Shown here: in pieces, positions 6,774-55,737 of the stretch
Layout of the letters: each line of letters opens with the position of its first letter
Position numbering within the stretch: position 1 is the first letter of the stretch
Source of the DNA: Capitulum mitella
Lineage: Eukaryota > Arthropoda > Thecostraca > Pollicipedomorpha > Pollicipedidae
Reading direction: 5' to 3'
NCBI GenBank assembly: GCA_030062745.1
Contig: CP099847.1
Coordinates: 30,484,779-30,548,778 of the forward strand
Length of the DNA stretch: 64,000 bases
Made by a program: the position numbers and the translations under genes
The notes under the pieces: generated by a model
The model's database searches: none
What the model saw: only the letters and a program-made list of their open reading frames with translations
Told to the model about the DNA's origin: nothing

Positions 6774-7381
6774 ACAGGTCACAGTAAGTAGTTTGTCTTG
6801 TGTATTCTTGGTGTAGGGTAGACAAATCAGTTTCGATGGCAGTGAAGCATGCGTCATTTTGCAGAATGAATCGTTGAAACGTTTATACAATTTATTTGGC
6901 AAATGACAGTACTTATTGTCGAGACAATTTTGGCAGTTCATGGTTTCCTTTGGATGATTCATCACAGTCACTGTGAATGGACAATGCTACCATGATCCAG
7001 TTTCCTGCTAGTTTTATAGTCAGCAAGATCTATGCTACCCTAGAAAAATCCTTGGCCATGCAATACAGTGTTTATTTTCTGGCAGACCAGCATAATTAGC
7101 ATAAAAATCATACAACAGATAATTTAAGGCAAATACTTATGACCTACCACTGCATAATGTCATTTCAAGGTGAAGAAGGTGAATAAAAGTGCAGTAATTC
7201 AGTATTTTTAGTCATCTCTGAGTGCTGTGCCACTTGGCTGATTGGTTTCTGCTAGGATTCTCCATTAACAAATTCAAAAAAGCAGTTTCAAGATTGAGGT
7301 ATTTGGGCCTAATGATGGTATCAGCATAACCTAGTATAATAAATAGTAAACAAGATTAACAAGATACCGTACCTAAATCAA

Positions 7382-7436
7382 CCTAACCTAACCTAACCTA
7401 ATGTAACCCAACCCAACACAACCTAACCTAACCTAA
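7382..7436 (-). repeat. Interstitial CCTAA (TTAGG) telomere-like array
   Basis: Four uninterrupted CCTAA units (7382-7401), a degenerate middle with CCCAA variants, then three more CCTAA units (7422-7436). Read on the minus strand this is TTAGG, the canonical arthropod telomere unit. Confidence 0.8.
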
Positions 7437-8081
7437 TTAGGCATGCAGCTTAACCTGTGTTAAAGAGAGCCAAGTCCATTTGCACCCTTTATCAGCCTGT
7501 GGCCTCTAGTATCCTACACTATGCCTCCAGCATGGGACTGCACCTTTGGCTCAACATTACATTTGTGAATGTCCCTTTTTTGGTCTGCAGCCTCTAGTGT
7601 CATTTATTTGATGACATCATCAAACATTATGCATCATATAGGGCATTTGTGGAGCAAAGGCAGTAAACAGGATGATGCTGCCAGTTCCATTTGAGTTTGC
7701 TCATGGTGAAATACACTGCTATTTCCTCTGGAAACCATACCATTAGTGTTACCATTTCTTTCTTTCATAGAAAATTTTATGTGCTGTTCTGCATGGTATA
7801 TGTAGCAAAGGTGGTCTGTAAAAAGGTGAATATGTGATATGTCTTCAAATCTTTGCAAAATATACCACATTTACAGGTCTAGACCAATATGATACATTAC
7901 ACAGACCAGAAAAAGGCTTACATGAAAAATGTGTTTTAATCTTGGACTGTTGTGCACTTTTAAAACAGTGCCAGGCTGGAGCTGTTTTGAAGTCATTTTA
8001 TTCCATAGATGTAGGTCAGATCAAACTTACTTCAAGGTAAATCTGCTGCCTGGGAAAGCCGCATGCTGTGATGCCTGCAGT

Positions 8082-18734: not shown

Positions 18735-18835
18735 TCATGTGGGGTCAGGTTAGGTAAGGCTAGGTTACAACAGTTAAGGTTAGGTTAGGTTTATATTATT
18801 GGGTACCGGTAATATTATTGGGTAATAATATATTG
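18735..18835 (+). repeat. TTAGG-like stretch followed by an AT-rich inverted repeat
   Basis: Scattered TTAGG/TTAAGG units (tightest at 18774-18790) run directly into an inverted repeat. In it ACCGGTAATATTATT pairs with a downstream AATAATA...TTACCGGT around a GGGT centre. Confidence 0.6.
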
Positions 18836-44828: not shown

Positions 44829-47800
44829 CATGGGATGTATAAGTTTTTTTAAATAGCAACAGAAAACTCAAAAATTTCCATTGATCAAAATAAAGTTGGC
44901 TAAATCCATTGAGAAACCCACATTTAGGGGAGGTTACATTGTCGGCCCTGTGGCTCAGCCCACCTCCTTACCGATCGCACACCATGCTCAGAGTCGAGGG
45001 TAAGGTTAACGTGCGAGTGTAGTTTCCAATTTCGCCACCAGGGTGGTATTCGTTCTTTTTCTCGCCGCTAGGAAGAGTATGTAAAAATACTGACATTGGC
45101 TAGGATGGTTCCGCTCAAGAACGCGCGAGTGTAGTTTCCAATTTCGCCACCAGGGTAATATTCGTTAGGTTAGGTTAGGTTAGGTTAGGTCTGAACGAAT
45201 TCATCTGCTTTCCATCGTGGTTCGGCAATTCTGGAGAAAGTGGTCCTTTTTCGTGATTGACCTCACCTGTGACGTCATCAGCGGGTCAGAAGTAAAAGTG
45301 TGTAAGTCACAGAAATGAAACGTTTGGCGCTATCACCTGGCGTTCGAATCAGCCAAATCGAACTGTTGGTTATCATACCATTGGTTCTTGAGCGGAACCA
45401 TCCTAGCAAATGTCATTATTTTTACGTACTCTTCCTAGCGGCGAGAAAAAGAACGAATATCACCCTGGTGGCGAAATCGGAAACTACACTCGCGCGTTAA
45501 CCTTACCCTCGACTCTGCGCATGGTGTGCGATCGGTAAGGATTACCAGCCCACCTAATAATCATTTATGGCAATTGACACCCCTGGTCAGGGACTGGGCA
45601 TGAGTCCCAAGGCAGGCTATAATGTAATGTGGGCATGAGACAAAAAGTGCCAACTGTGTACTGGGCAGTCACATTGCACATCCAAGGTCCTTAAGTGCTT
45701 CGTGATTGGTGCTTAGGCAAAATCACTCTATAATTGGGAACACTTGGTGTCAGACATAAATATAAGTGTATCCAGTATAAATATGGTAATGCATAGGCTG
45801 TGATCCCAATGCAACCCACTTCACTACATTCACTGTAGATCTATTTTAATGATGGGTTGAATTTAAGAAATCCAGGTATATTTTGCTCTAAAAAATGATA
45901 TACTGAGCAGATCTGTGACCACCAACGTGAAAGAGATGGCAGTTATGTTAAGTTCATTGTGTAAGTGCAATTTCAGTGAAAGGCATAGATATCATGAAGT
46001 TTTCCTTTTCACTTTAACATGATCTTCCAGCTTCAGGACATCTTCTGTGTTCTGTTTATGTGCTTCTGTGGTAATATTTGCTAATTTGTGTTGTTTGACT
46101 GAATCATAGAACACACTTCCTTGTTTTAATTTTTTTGTTTTGTTTATGTTTCTGCTGTATTTGTATATAACTGTATTCTCCATTGCAGTATTCTTGCATC
46201 ACCTCAGTATATGGAGATGATGGAGAGTTGCAAGAACTTCAACAAGAGACTTCTGGTGGAGAGAAAAGGAAGGGTGCCATTCATTGATGCTCATACTGGT
46301 CAGTGCATTCTTGTTTCTCCTAACACTTGCCCTGTTATTGCTGATACAGTTTCTTTATCTGTATTGTCTGGATCAGCGTTTTTCTTCCTGAGAGCCTTAT
46401 AAATTGAACAGATTTCAGACAAAACTATTGGGTTATAACATGATTTTGTAGAACACTACACTGTTTTCAGAAGTCTGAAGCCATAAGGTGCAAATGCATT
46501 TCTTAACCAGGACACTGAGTAAGTGTAATGAAATAAAAAGTCTGGTTGAATCATGAACAGAGATGATGTCAGACACAGATCTTGTGCAGCTGATTTGGTT
46601 AATACAAGGCTGTGCAGGTTGACCAGATCCCCTGTCTCTCCCGGCCAGGCCTGGCCCAAACCGACTGCAGTCTGTGGATGGAGCAGCGCCACCGCATGCC
46701 GGGCGTCAAGCCAGGCCAGGTGTACACGTACCCAGCCAAGCGCTGGATCAAGCGGCGGCGCCAGTACCTTAACTTCTTCATGCAGCCCAAGAAGTTTGGC
46801 CTGGAGGAGTGCGAGCTGGCGATCGCTGCTGTGCAGAACCCCACTTTCACAGAGGACAGCAGTGCCAGCCTCAACGACGGCTCGAAGGTGGGTTCCACTG
46901 GTGTTGGCACCACAGTGTGTCAGTTGTCTTTGCCTGGTGGGTAAAACTCCCTGGTTTGATCCTGGGTGATGCGTGAGACCCCCATGAGAGTTTGGTGCTC
47001 TAAACAAATCTCCCATTCGGAAGCACCAGTCAGTGGTAATTGTCGCGGTGTCGGAGGGTGATATCCGGGCGCTCGCTCGGCGGCAGGATGGCTGGTATTA
47101 CGAGGACGCCGAGATCGACCGCGACGACTTCGAGGAGAACTCGGACGCCTCCGACTACGACTTCGACGACCGGTACCGCAAGAAGAAGAAGGCGTCGTCG
47201 CAGAAACGCAGCTCGGTGAGCCATCAGCGCCCTGTGCTGTGGACTTCCGGTGGTTGTGCGTGATGTCACACCTTGATAGTACGAGTGGCCTTTATATTGG
47301 CGGATGCAGGTGTTACCTTTTTATCCTCATTTTTGATTATTTACTTTCATTTTATTTCTTGCTCGGGAAAGGCGCGACAGTAAAAGGATTTAAACATGGT
47401 GGTGGGGGTTTTCGAATTTTATGTCACAAATTGCTTGTCATTTTGCAAACGGCAGGCATTGACATAGTATGGGTGTCTTTGGAAAGCAGTCATGACCAAT
47501 GCCGAAAGGGAACAAGGACTACGTAACAGAAACAGAAAGGGCTCTCACAGGACAAAGGACCATCTCCCTGCTCAAGACACTGCAACTTGAGAACAATCCC
47601 TGGGTTGTTGACGACTGAGAGCAACTGGCCCCTTGTTGTTGGCACCTGTCATGGTCGTTCCGTCGGGCCGGAGATCGTGTCTCCTCCGTCTGCCGATGGA
47701 GCCCGGTTGACAACGGCGGTTCGCTCCGCTCTGACGACGGTGGCTCACCGGCTGCTCCTCACTCCGCAGGGCCGCAGCAGCAGCAGCCGCCGGCGGAACG

Positions 47801-54360: not shown

Positions 54361-54521
54361 ATGAGCATTTAGAGGCCCCTGCTAGCTTGTAGGGGAATTC
54401 ACAGCTTGTTTCAGGAGGGCCCCCTGTAGACCCATAAAGGATCCCTGTCAGCCTCTGAAAGGACCTCCTTTTGGTTTGGAAATAGGGCCTTGCCCCTGCC
54501 TCCAGAGGTCGACATGGGCCC
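54360..54521. repeat. Degenerate CCCCTG/CTGTAG minisatellite, left part
   Basis: Roughly 30-40-bp units with AGGGCCCCCTGTAG-type cores. Continues at 55742 after the MITE insertion. Confidence 0.6.
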
Positions 54522-54525
54522 TTAA

Positions 54526-55737
54526 CCCTATTCCCGGAGGGCTAGACGGTATGGCCGATTCCCGGCAGGGGGGGGGGCGGATTCGGCCCCCCCCTGAGAT
54601 CTCGAGAACTACTTATTCGATTTCATCGCAACAAATGGCAATCGATTTGCCGTGACATGAACTACATTTTGATAAAAAGAAATTTTCAAAATTTTGAAAT
54701 TTGTGAATACAGGGGGGCAAAAATGTCAAAATGGGGGGTACTTTTTGACTTCTTATAACTCCGTTGTTTATGGACCGATTTTGATGAAACTGGCATCAAT
54801 CGAGAGATTATGGATAGGGCTTTTACCATGGGTATGCAAATTTGAAATTTTGAGAAAATTCATGGGCGTTCACAGGGTTTCAAAAATAGGGGGATTACTT
54901 TTCCAATAACGGAATGAACAAAAGAGGCCAAAACACTTTTTTAGCTTCTGCTAGTCATGTTATGCTAAAGAAGTACAAATCGCATTACAATGTTTGTATA
55001 ATGTTAGCACAGGCGGTGCCAGGGACATAAAAAAGGGGGAACTGTCATGGTCACACGTTTCTCAGATCAACTTGTGACCTTTTGACCTTAAATGACCTCC
55101 AGTGACCTTGGGGTCACCTGGAATGATGTCGTGTGCATTCAATATTATCTGTAAACGTTTTTAATCGATTAAATTCACTCTATTCCAAAAAATTCATTTT
55201 TTGGCTTTTGCGATATAAGGTACGTGCACTGACATTTTAGGTCATAGCTCCGTGACCTGACCTGATATCAAGCTGAAACTTGGTACACAAGTAGAGGGCA
55301 TCTTTCTACGTCATATATATTCCGGGTTTGGCATTTGAAAAAACGGCGCCGAAATTATTGCGAAAAAACAAATTTTGACTTTTGACCTTGACCTGACCTT
55401 GTAAAGTGACCTCAGAGAAACAAAATTACATATGCACATTGCCCAACTATTTAGCTATATATTCATATAAAGTTTTAAGTTCTATCTTAAAAACTCTGTT
55501 TTTGGCAGACATTTTCCTTTTACCCTCAACATGGCCAAAAATGACCTGAGGTGCCTCCCAAAAACGTTGCCTGGCTCCGCCCCTAAGCAAAATAGAATTT
55601 CGAAATTTTGTCACGGCGCGTAGAAGGAATAGCTAGGAAAAGTCACCAAGTTTCGTGAAGCTGCGTCAAAAAGCCTGGAATTGGCAAGCAAAAAACCCGA
55701 GGGGGGGCGGATTCCGCCCCCCCTGCCGGGAATAGGG
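54526..55737. mobile_element. piggyBac-like MITE flanked by TTAA
   Basis: TTAA at 54522-54525 and at 55738-55741 directly flank termini reading CCCTATTCCCGG inward from each side. A second inverted block (GGCAGGGGGGG then GCGGATTC) lies just inside. The left end carries a 27-bp duplication containing a second ATTCCCGG. piggyBac-superfamily elements duplicate TTAA and have termini starting CCC (established). The 1.2-kb interior has no transposase frame, so the copy is non-autonomous. Confidence 0.85.

Follow-up and report, generated by a model that had tools for sequence, protein, structure and literature searches.

The foldback element of the window, the whole 64,000-nucleotide stretch of DNA analysed here (C9:30484779-30548778 of a 477-Mb genome in 16 contigs), is a small, recently copied transposon remnant and belongs to a dispersed mobile family, which we refer to as family A. 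We consider it probable, at roughly 80%, that family A is a Merlin MITE that arose by internal deletion and was moved in trans, and that its telomere-like array came down from an autonomous parent that had it in the 3ʹ region. The results suggest that TTAGG arrays inside chromosomes can travel as cargo of transposons and are not necessarily marks of old chromosome ends.

By repeat search and comparison we confirmed a foldback with arms at 44966-45122 and 45384-45540, mismatched at 7 of 157 positions without gaps, and with (TTAGG)5 in the loop at 45165-45189; the original prediction of two gapless 157-bp arms with seven differences and five TTAGG units was borne out in every detail. The element does lie at 44966..45540, where it had been placed, with its true ends a few bases farther out. 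These ends were defined from copies other than the window one, which start with GGTAATCC and finish with GGATTACC (GGTAAT...ATTACC). The window copy has lost GGTAA or GGTAAT, the first 5-6 bases, on the left, ends at 45546 on the right, and is flanked by the 8-bp target site duplication (TSD) AGCCCACC (AGCCCACCT if 9 bp are counted) at 44957-44964/5 and 45547-45554/5. We counted 10 occurrences of TTAGGTTAGG in the window, where 100 shuffles gave 0.09 on average. Absent from the earlier description was a 47-bp segment of the left arm (45008-45054) that recurs at 45120-45166, immediately 5ʹ of the array. Read in order, the left side of the element consists of the first 158 bp of the arm of a long relative (L047), a repeat of element positions 44-90, the array, and a 14-nt match to a transposase gene, TCTGAACGAATTCA; when the 19-nt stretch was shuffled 5,000 times, 3 shuffles gave a match of at least 14 nt. 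The features of the window copy are as follows:

44957..44964, no strand: left TSD copy AGCCCACC (9 bp counting the next T), identical to 45547-45554
44965..45122, plus strand: left arm, the terminal inverted repeat without its first 5-6 bases GGTAA(T), from repeat search and comparison with other copies
45120..45166, plus strand: 47-bp duplicate of arm segment 45008-45054, a 94% identical direct repeat abutting the array
45165..45189, plus strand: (TTAGG)5 array; the longest perfect run is 2-9 units among 52 short copies, window copy included
45190..45203, minus strand: 14-nt TCTGAACGAATTCA, antisense match to the Merlin transposase gene at locus L110, encoding DEFVQT and then, by eye, a stop codon inside the array
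45203..45546, minus strand: right side, 344 bp, including the right arm; L047 matches it at 94-96% identity in the outer 346 bp of either end
45384..45546, minus strand: right arm with intact tip ...GGTAAGGATTACC, from repeat search and copy comparison
45547..45554, no strand: right TSD copy AGCCCACC, matching the left copy

A genome search with the 575-bp element gave 295 candidates, 40 of which were scored; 39 listed places (the window included) spanned the full query, two more covered 118-575 and 238-575, and the scored matches were found on 15 of the 16 contigs. The terminal sequence CCTTACCGATCGCACACCATG, with at most two mismatches, had 211 occurrences in the genome (105 + 106), and a control pattern had none. 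We read 55 complete elements drawn from the match lists, which represent part of the family. Exact TSDs of 8 bp were present in 36 of them and of 9 bp in 7 (together 43/55), with neither in 12, and at least two tandem TTAGG units were present in 54 of 55, the exception being L047. The earlier view of a mobile element whose dispersed copies are alike in their arms, in the loop array and in being flanked by a short duplication was thereby upheld: it is not single-copy, all but one of the copies read hold TTAGG, and its ends are defined. The 52 short copies (483-650 bp; consensus 588 bp) are near-identical and have inverted-repeat ends, as in MITEs. Two family A copies were observed in or beside TTAGG-like tracts (L013, 2437-3062; L029, 437-481 and after 1106).

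Outside the array, the short copies diverged from the consensus by a median of 1.8% (52 copies), and the window copy by 2.7%. The two 163-bp arms of the consensus do not differ from each other at all, and the arm mutations of individual copies were found in the left arm only (161) or in the right arm only (130), with 6 in both (4 of them the same change) where 3.3 were expected. Since the consensus arms are identical and the mutations mostly private to one arm, the seven differences in the window copy arose after a recent burst, and young age suffices to explain the similarity of its arms. Gene conversion between the arms was considered and rejected, as there was no clear excess of shared mutations; the proposal that the element is either young or kept homogeneous was therefore supported in its first part and not in its second. 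The span from the arm repeat to the post-array flank varied by five-base steps in all 39 measurable copies (39 of 52 were usable; the measure failed in 8 and was in error for another 5). We saw no correlation of array length with copy age (Spearman 0.12, p = 0.44, 44 of 52 copies). Clustering of the copies toward chromosome ends, which had been raised as a possibility, was not seen in the 40 copies compared with contig ends (KS p = 0.42; 7/40 in the outer tenth, 4 expected).

Genome-wide, (TTAGG)5 had 5,729 matches (2807 + 2922, overlaps counted), and the reversed pentamer used as a control had 0. To see where such arrays reside, we took the first 20 listed (TTAGG)5 clusters on contig C1, which are consecutive and represent one region of one contig (2.54-9.18 Mb). 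All 20 lay inside repeat families: 9 in family B, 3 in C, 7 in D, 1 in E and none in A, which makes family A a minor TTAGG source there. The earlier idea that mobile elements carrying telomeric repeats could seed interstitial telomere-like tracts holds for such elements, with family A itself a minor contributor on C1 (0/20 clusters). Family B elements are 344-396 bp long, with inverted arms flanking the array (L095, a form of 679 bp, has several of them), the family D elements of the sample are 1.15-1.31 kb long, and at L099 a second array lies outside the family C element. Tips could be located in 7/9 B, 3/3 C and 6/7 D loci, and exact TSDs were of 9 bp in 6/7 located B, 8 bp in 2/3 C and 8 bp in 2/6 located D elements; families A, B, C and D all have GG tips. 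With at most two mismatches, the B tip had 451 + 445 matches in the genome, the D 5ʹ tip 116 + 104 and the D 3ʹ tip 279 + 271, with 0 for the controls. Among six later C1 clusters, three had D tips, one had adjoining B tips and two had no tip among the matches listed. For clusters of at least 12 perfect units, an exact D 5ʹ tip was within 1.5 kb in 6/38, and on C1 and C2 an exact B or D tip was within 1.5 kb in 5/12 and in the other 7/12 there was none, in each case among the matches listed; with so weak an association, some of these clusters may stem from other families, from elements with mutated tips or from other sources. At the contig ends (20 of 32 fetched), the start of C10 carries (AACCT)39 in the expected sense, the start of C1 (L067, C1:1-4000) is all N, and 18 have no terminal array.

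Merlin elements are described, in the part of the published account available to us, as having terminal GG, terminal inverted repeats of 24-462 bp and TSDs of 8 or 9 bp (PMC8101967). The PF12762 profile (DDE_Tnp_IS1595) had 36 matches in the genome, and we read 18 of these loci, 8 with flanks and 10 over 231 bp past the domain; they represent about four lineages and are not independent. Open 304-aa frames bearing the domain are present at L107 and L110. On the coding strand, 15 of the 18 loci carry an array of (CCTAA)2 or more, always in this sense, which begins 9-69 bases beyond the stop codon (for L112, where the stop is degraded, the distance was counted from the matching place), while (CCTAA)2 is found on a given strand in 0.26% of 100-nt stretches of the window. 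The array is missing at L109, L110 and L114. Pairwise protein identity among L107, L108, L109 and L110 was 45-53%, and 52% between the array-bearing L107 and L108. The L107 transposase had no match in viral contigs.

Family D links a MITE to a transposase-bearing Merlin element. At four or more loci of 2.4-2.66 kb, both family D tips enclose, in the right order, the transposase and the array:

C2:15550316-15552976, transposase locus bracketed by D tips: both tips, PF12762 and array
C3:11047730-11050364, transposase locus bracketed by D tips: both tips, PF12762 and array
C4:24326793-24329204, transposase locus bracketed by D tips: both tips, PF12762 and array
C5:3631527-3634187, transposase locus bracketed by D tips: both tips, PF12762 and array

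The D 5ʹ tip was located 934-940 bp upstream of the transposase domain at no fewer than six loci, these four included, and 2.6 kb upstream at a seventh (C6). The sequence following the array in eight D-type loci matched the right half of family D at 67-80%. The shared tips and the matching right half indicate that family D arose by deletion from a Merlin element that carried the array.

Past its array, L107 has a motif of about 40-60 bp that also occurs at a C-like locus (L099) and in family E, which has a member in the window:

7073..7835, plus strand: old repeat of family E, ends undefined, with CCTAA units at 7382-7436; its motif at 7466-7519 is 85% identical to the post-array stretch of L107

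It had been suggested that other TTAGG-like tracts of the window may come from relatives of the foldback. Such tracts do exist, at 7382-7436 and 18780-18789, and the one at 7.4 kb is part of a different and older repeat, which has a motif in common with a Merlin locus. The tract at 18780-18789, the third of the window, lies in a region (18740-18800) where it adjoins GGTAATATTATT and TACCGGTAA repeats; we assign it to none of families A-E. We also noticed at 54521-55190 a repeat of about 0.6-0.67 kb that is 90% identical to a copy beside L111, 93% to one at L114 and 84% (363 bp) to one at L108.

Three relatives of family A are longer. L047 (995-5865) is 4.87 kb long; its arms measure about 1.5 kb, and between them lie diverged tandem repeats and no array. 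Its outer 346 bp corresponds to the right side of the window element, and among its listed frames only one, of 93 aa and located in an arm, reaches 80 aa. L048 and L049 (1.95 and 1.94 kb) are family A elements with an array-bearing family D element inside, which in L049 is surrounded by the 8-bp duplication GCTTTCCA (by eye). The two are 98% identical across the whole composite and lie at two sites with different TSDs, of 9 and 8 bp, indicating that the composite transposed as a unit.

Family A shares with Merlin elements the terminal GG, the 8- or 9-bp TSDs and an arm length (163 bp) within 24-462 bp; the arms of L047, at about 1.5 kb, exceed this range and count against the assignment. The tips of families A and B match at 19 of 27 positions, which was reached by 0 of 20,000 shuffles. 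On the minus strand, family A has the arm, a scrap of transposase, the CCTAA array and the other arm, arranged and oriented as at the transposase loci, although the shortness of the 14-nt match counts against a Merlin descent. We found no autonomous element bearing family A tips among the matches listed, which covered the first 100 of 211 tips, and among the 8 of 36 transposase loci read with flanks, and so the descent of family A rests on its termini, on this order and on the 14-base match. Among the loci read, the one transposase beside a family A copy is L110 (1326-2310), where the MITE lies about 65 bp upstream of the start codon and has its own ends and a TSD with one mismatch. We considered the L110 transposase as the source of family A and rejected it: the only full-length match to L110 in the genome is L110 itself, the other 7 being partial, at 67-79%, and the stretch read has no A-like tips beyond those of the adjacent copy. 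L110 is the source of the 14-nt match and yet lacks an array, which speaks against a simple descent of family A from it.

From these data we infer that family A belongs to Merlin, that it originated by deletion and that its array was inherited rather than freshly captured. The lack of an array at L109, L110 and L114 and in L047 counts against this view, as does the sampling of 18 of 36 transposase loci from about four lineages. In such a scheme, the telomere-like array would be a resident 3ʹ part of Merlin elements, placed as (CCTAA)n past the stop codon and, in family D, before the 3ʹ tip. Faulty gap repair would delete the transposase internally and leave the two arms and, between them, a coding fragment followed by the array. 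The resulting, putatively non-coding MITE could then be mobilised by a Merlin transposase in trans and recently amplified, with later shifts of the array length by whole units through slippage.

The element and its array may be explained in other ways. A non-mobile local palindrome or segmental duplication is practically out of the question, given the defined ends, the TSDs and the presence on 15 of 16 contigs among the scored matches. Alternatively, each MITE family may have gained its array at birth, when telomerase or telomere copying patched an excision break and transposition multiplied the patch. The position of the family A array at a rearrangement junction, after a 47-bp repeat of template-switch-like appearance, would fit such an event, as would the ...CGTT end, which could prime TTAGG synthesis, and telomeric insertion at breaks is reported for mammals in the available parts of published studies (PMC2246262, PMC8537989, PMC7215372). 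However, two transposase lineages with 52% identical proteins both have the array at the same fixed position and in the same sense, and the sequence downstream of the array in transposase loci recurs in families D and E; we therefore regard capture at birth as unlikely. It is appreciably less probable still that host telomere-binding proteins bind the arrays and aid the element by hairpin stability, nuclear position or target choice; families with different arms do retain the array in the loop or the middle, but family A copies are not concentrated toward contig ends.

The array may also be an ordinary microsatellite, a functionless hitch-hiker generated by slippage in a CCTAACC-containing 3ʹ region. 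This explanation, which is compatible with inheritance from a Merlin parent, comes somewhat short of an even chance in our judgement. It agrees with the whole-unit length variation in all 39 measurable copies and with the single CCTAACC (L109, L114) or CCTGACC (L110) at the place of the array in loci that lack it. On the other hand, lineages whose proteins are 52% identical agree in where the array lies and in its sense, and the reversed pentamer had no match against the 5,729 of (TTAGG)5, so that slippage of any pentamer is not general in this genome. A tentative further reading, to which we give rather less weight, is that the arrays are not telomeric in origin and represent expanded splice branch points of a 3ʹ-UTR intron, in which case the MITEs would have seeded merely telomere-like tracts. 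CTAAC is the metazoan branch-site consensus. A splice-donor-like G(T/C)(A/C)AG, a pattern picked after the sequences had been inspected, is located 1-6 bases past the stop in 18/18 transposase loci and is present in 3.5% of 12-nt stretches of the window. Tandem CTAAC follows the donor-like pentamer in 15/18 loci, with an acceptor-like ...CAG beyond it in several. Downstream of L108 there are CCTAACCTAACC, a pyrimidine-rich stretch and TTTTTTGCAG, and in eight D-type loci the array ends with CCTAACAG; by its sequence, this arrangement looks like a small 3ʹ-UTR intron whose branch site has turned tandem.

TTAGG tracts inside chromosomes are commonly taken as traces of chromosome fusion or of repaired breaks. 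Since those sampled here belong to repeat families that have transposon ends, with hundreds of tips in the genome, counting or mapping TTAGG could mislead, with consequences for FISH, for studies of karyotype evolution and for read-based estimates of telomere length. The origin of such tracts becomes testable, through the place of the array in Merlin elements of related species and through any effect that it has for the transposon.

The families described here resemble Merlin (IS1595/IS1016-like) elements and their MITEs in the terminal GG, the 8- or 9-bp TSDs and the long inverted repeats, and in that a DDE_Tnp_IS1595 transposase of about 300 aa is encoded in the same genome, for family D between the same tips. 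They differ from described Merlin elements in the telomere-like array, a fixed 3ʹ component at most of the loci read (15/18); in the literature covered, mostly abstracts and largely outside subscription journals, we found no account of telomere-unit arrays as a component of Merlin. Drosophila-type Foldback (FB) elements have long, internally repetitive arms, and L047 is similar to them in its arms of about 1.5 kb and its interior of diverged tandem repeats; in contrast to FB, termini and context indicate Merlin, and the arms of the window copy are short. Short telomere-type arrays within chromosomes are also a property of the interstitial telomeric sequences of mammals, which were inserted at double-strand breaks according to the available parts of published studies (PMC2246262, PMC8537989), whereas the 20 clusters sampled on C1 lie inside repeat families, mostly with transposon ends. 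Finally, an interior simple repeat of variable length is shared with the general class of microsatellite-bearing MITEs; here, unlike in that class, the repeat is the arthropod telomere unit and also occupies a fixed place in transposase-bearing relatives.
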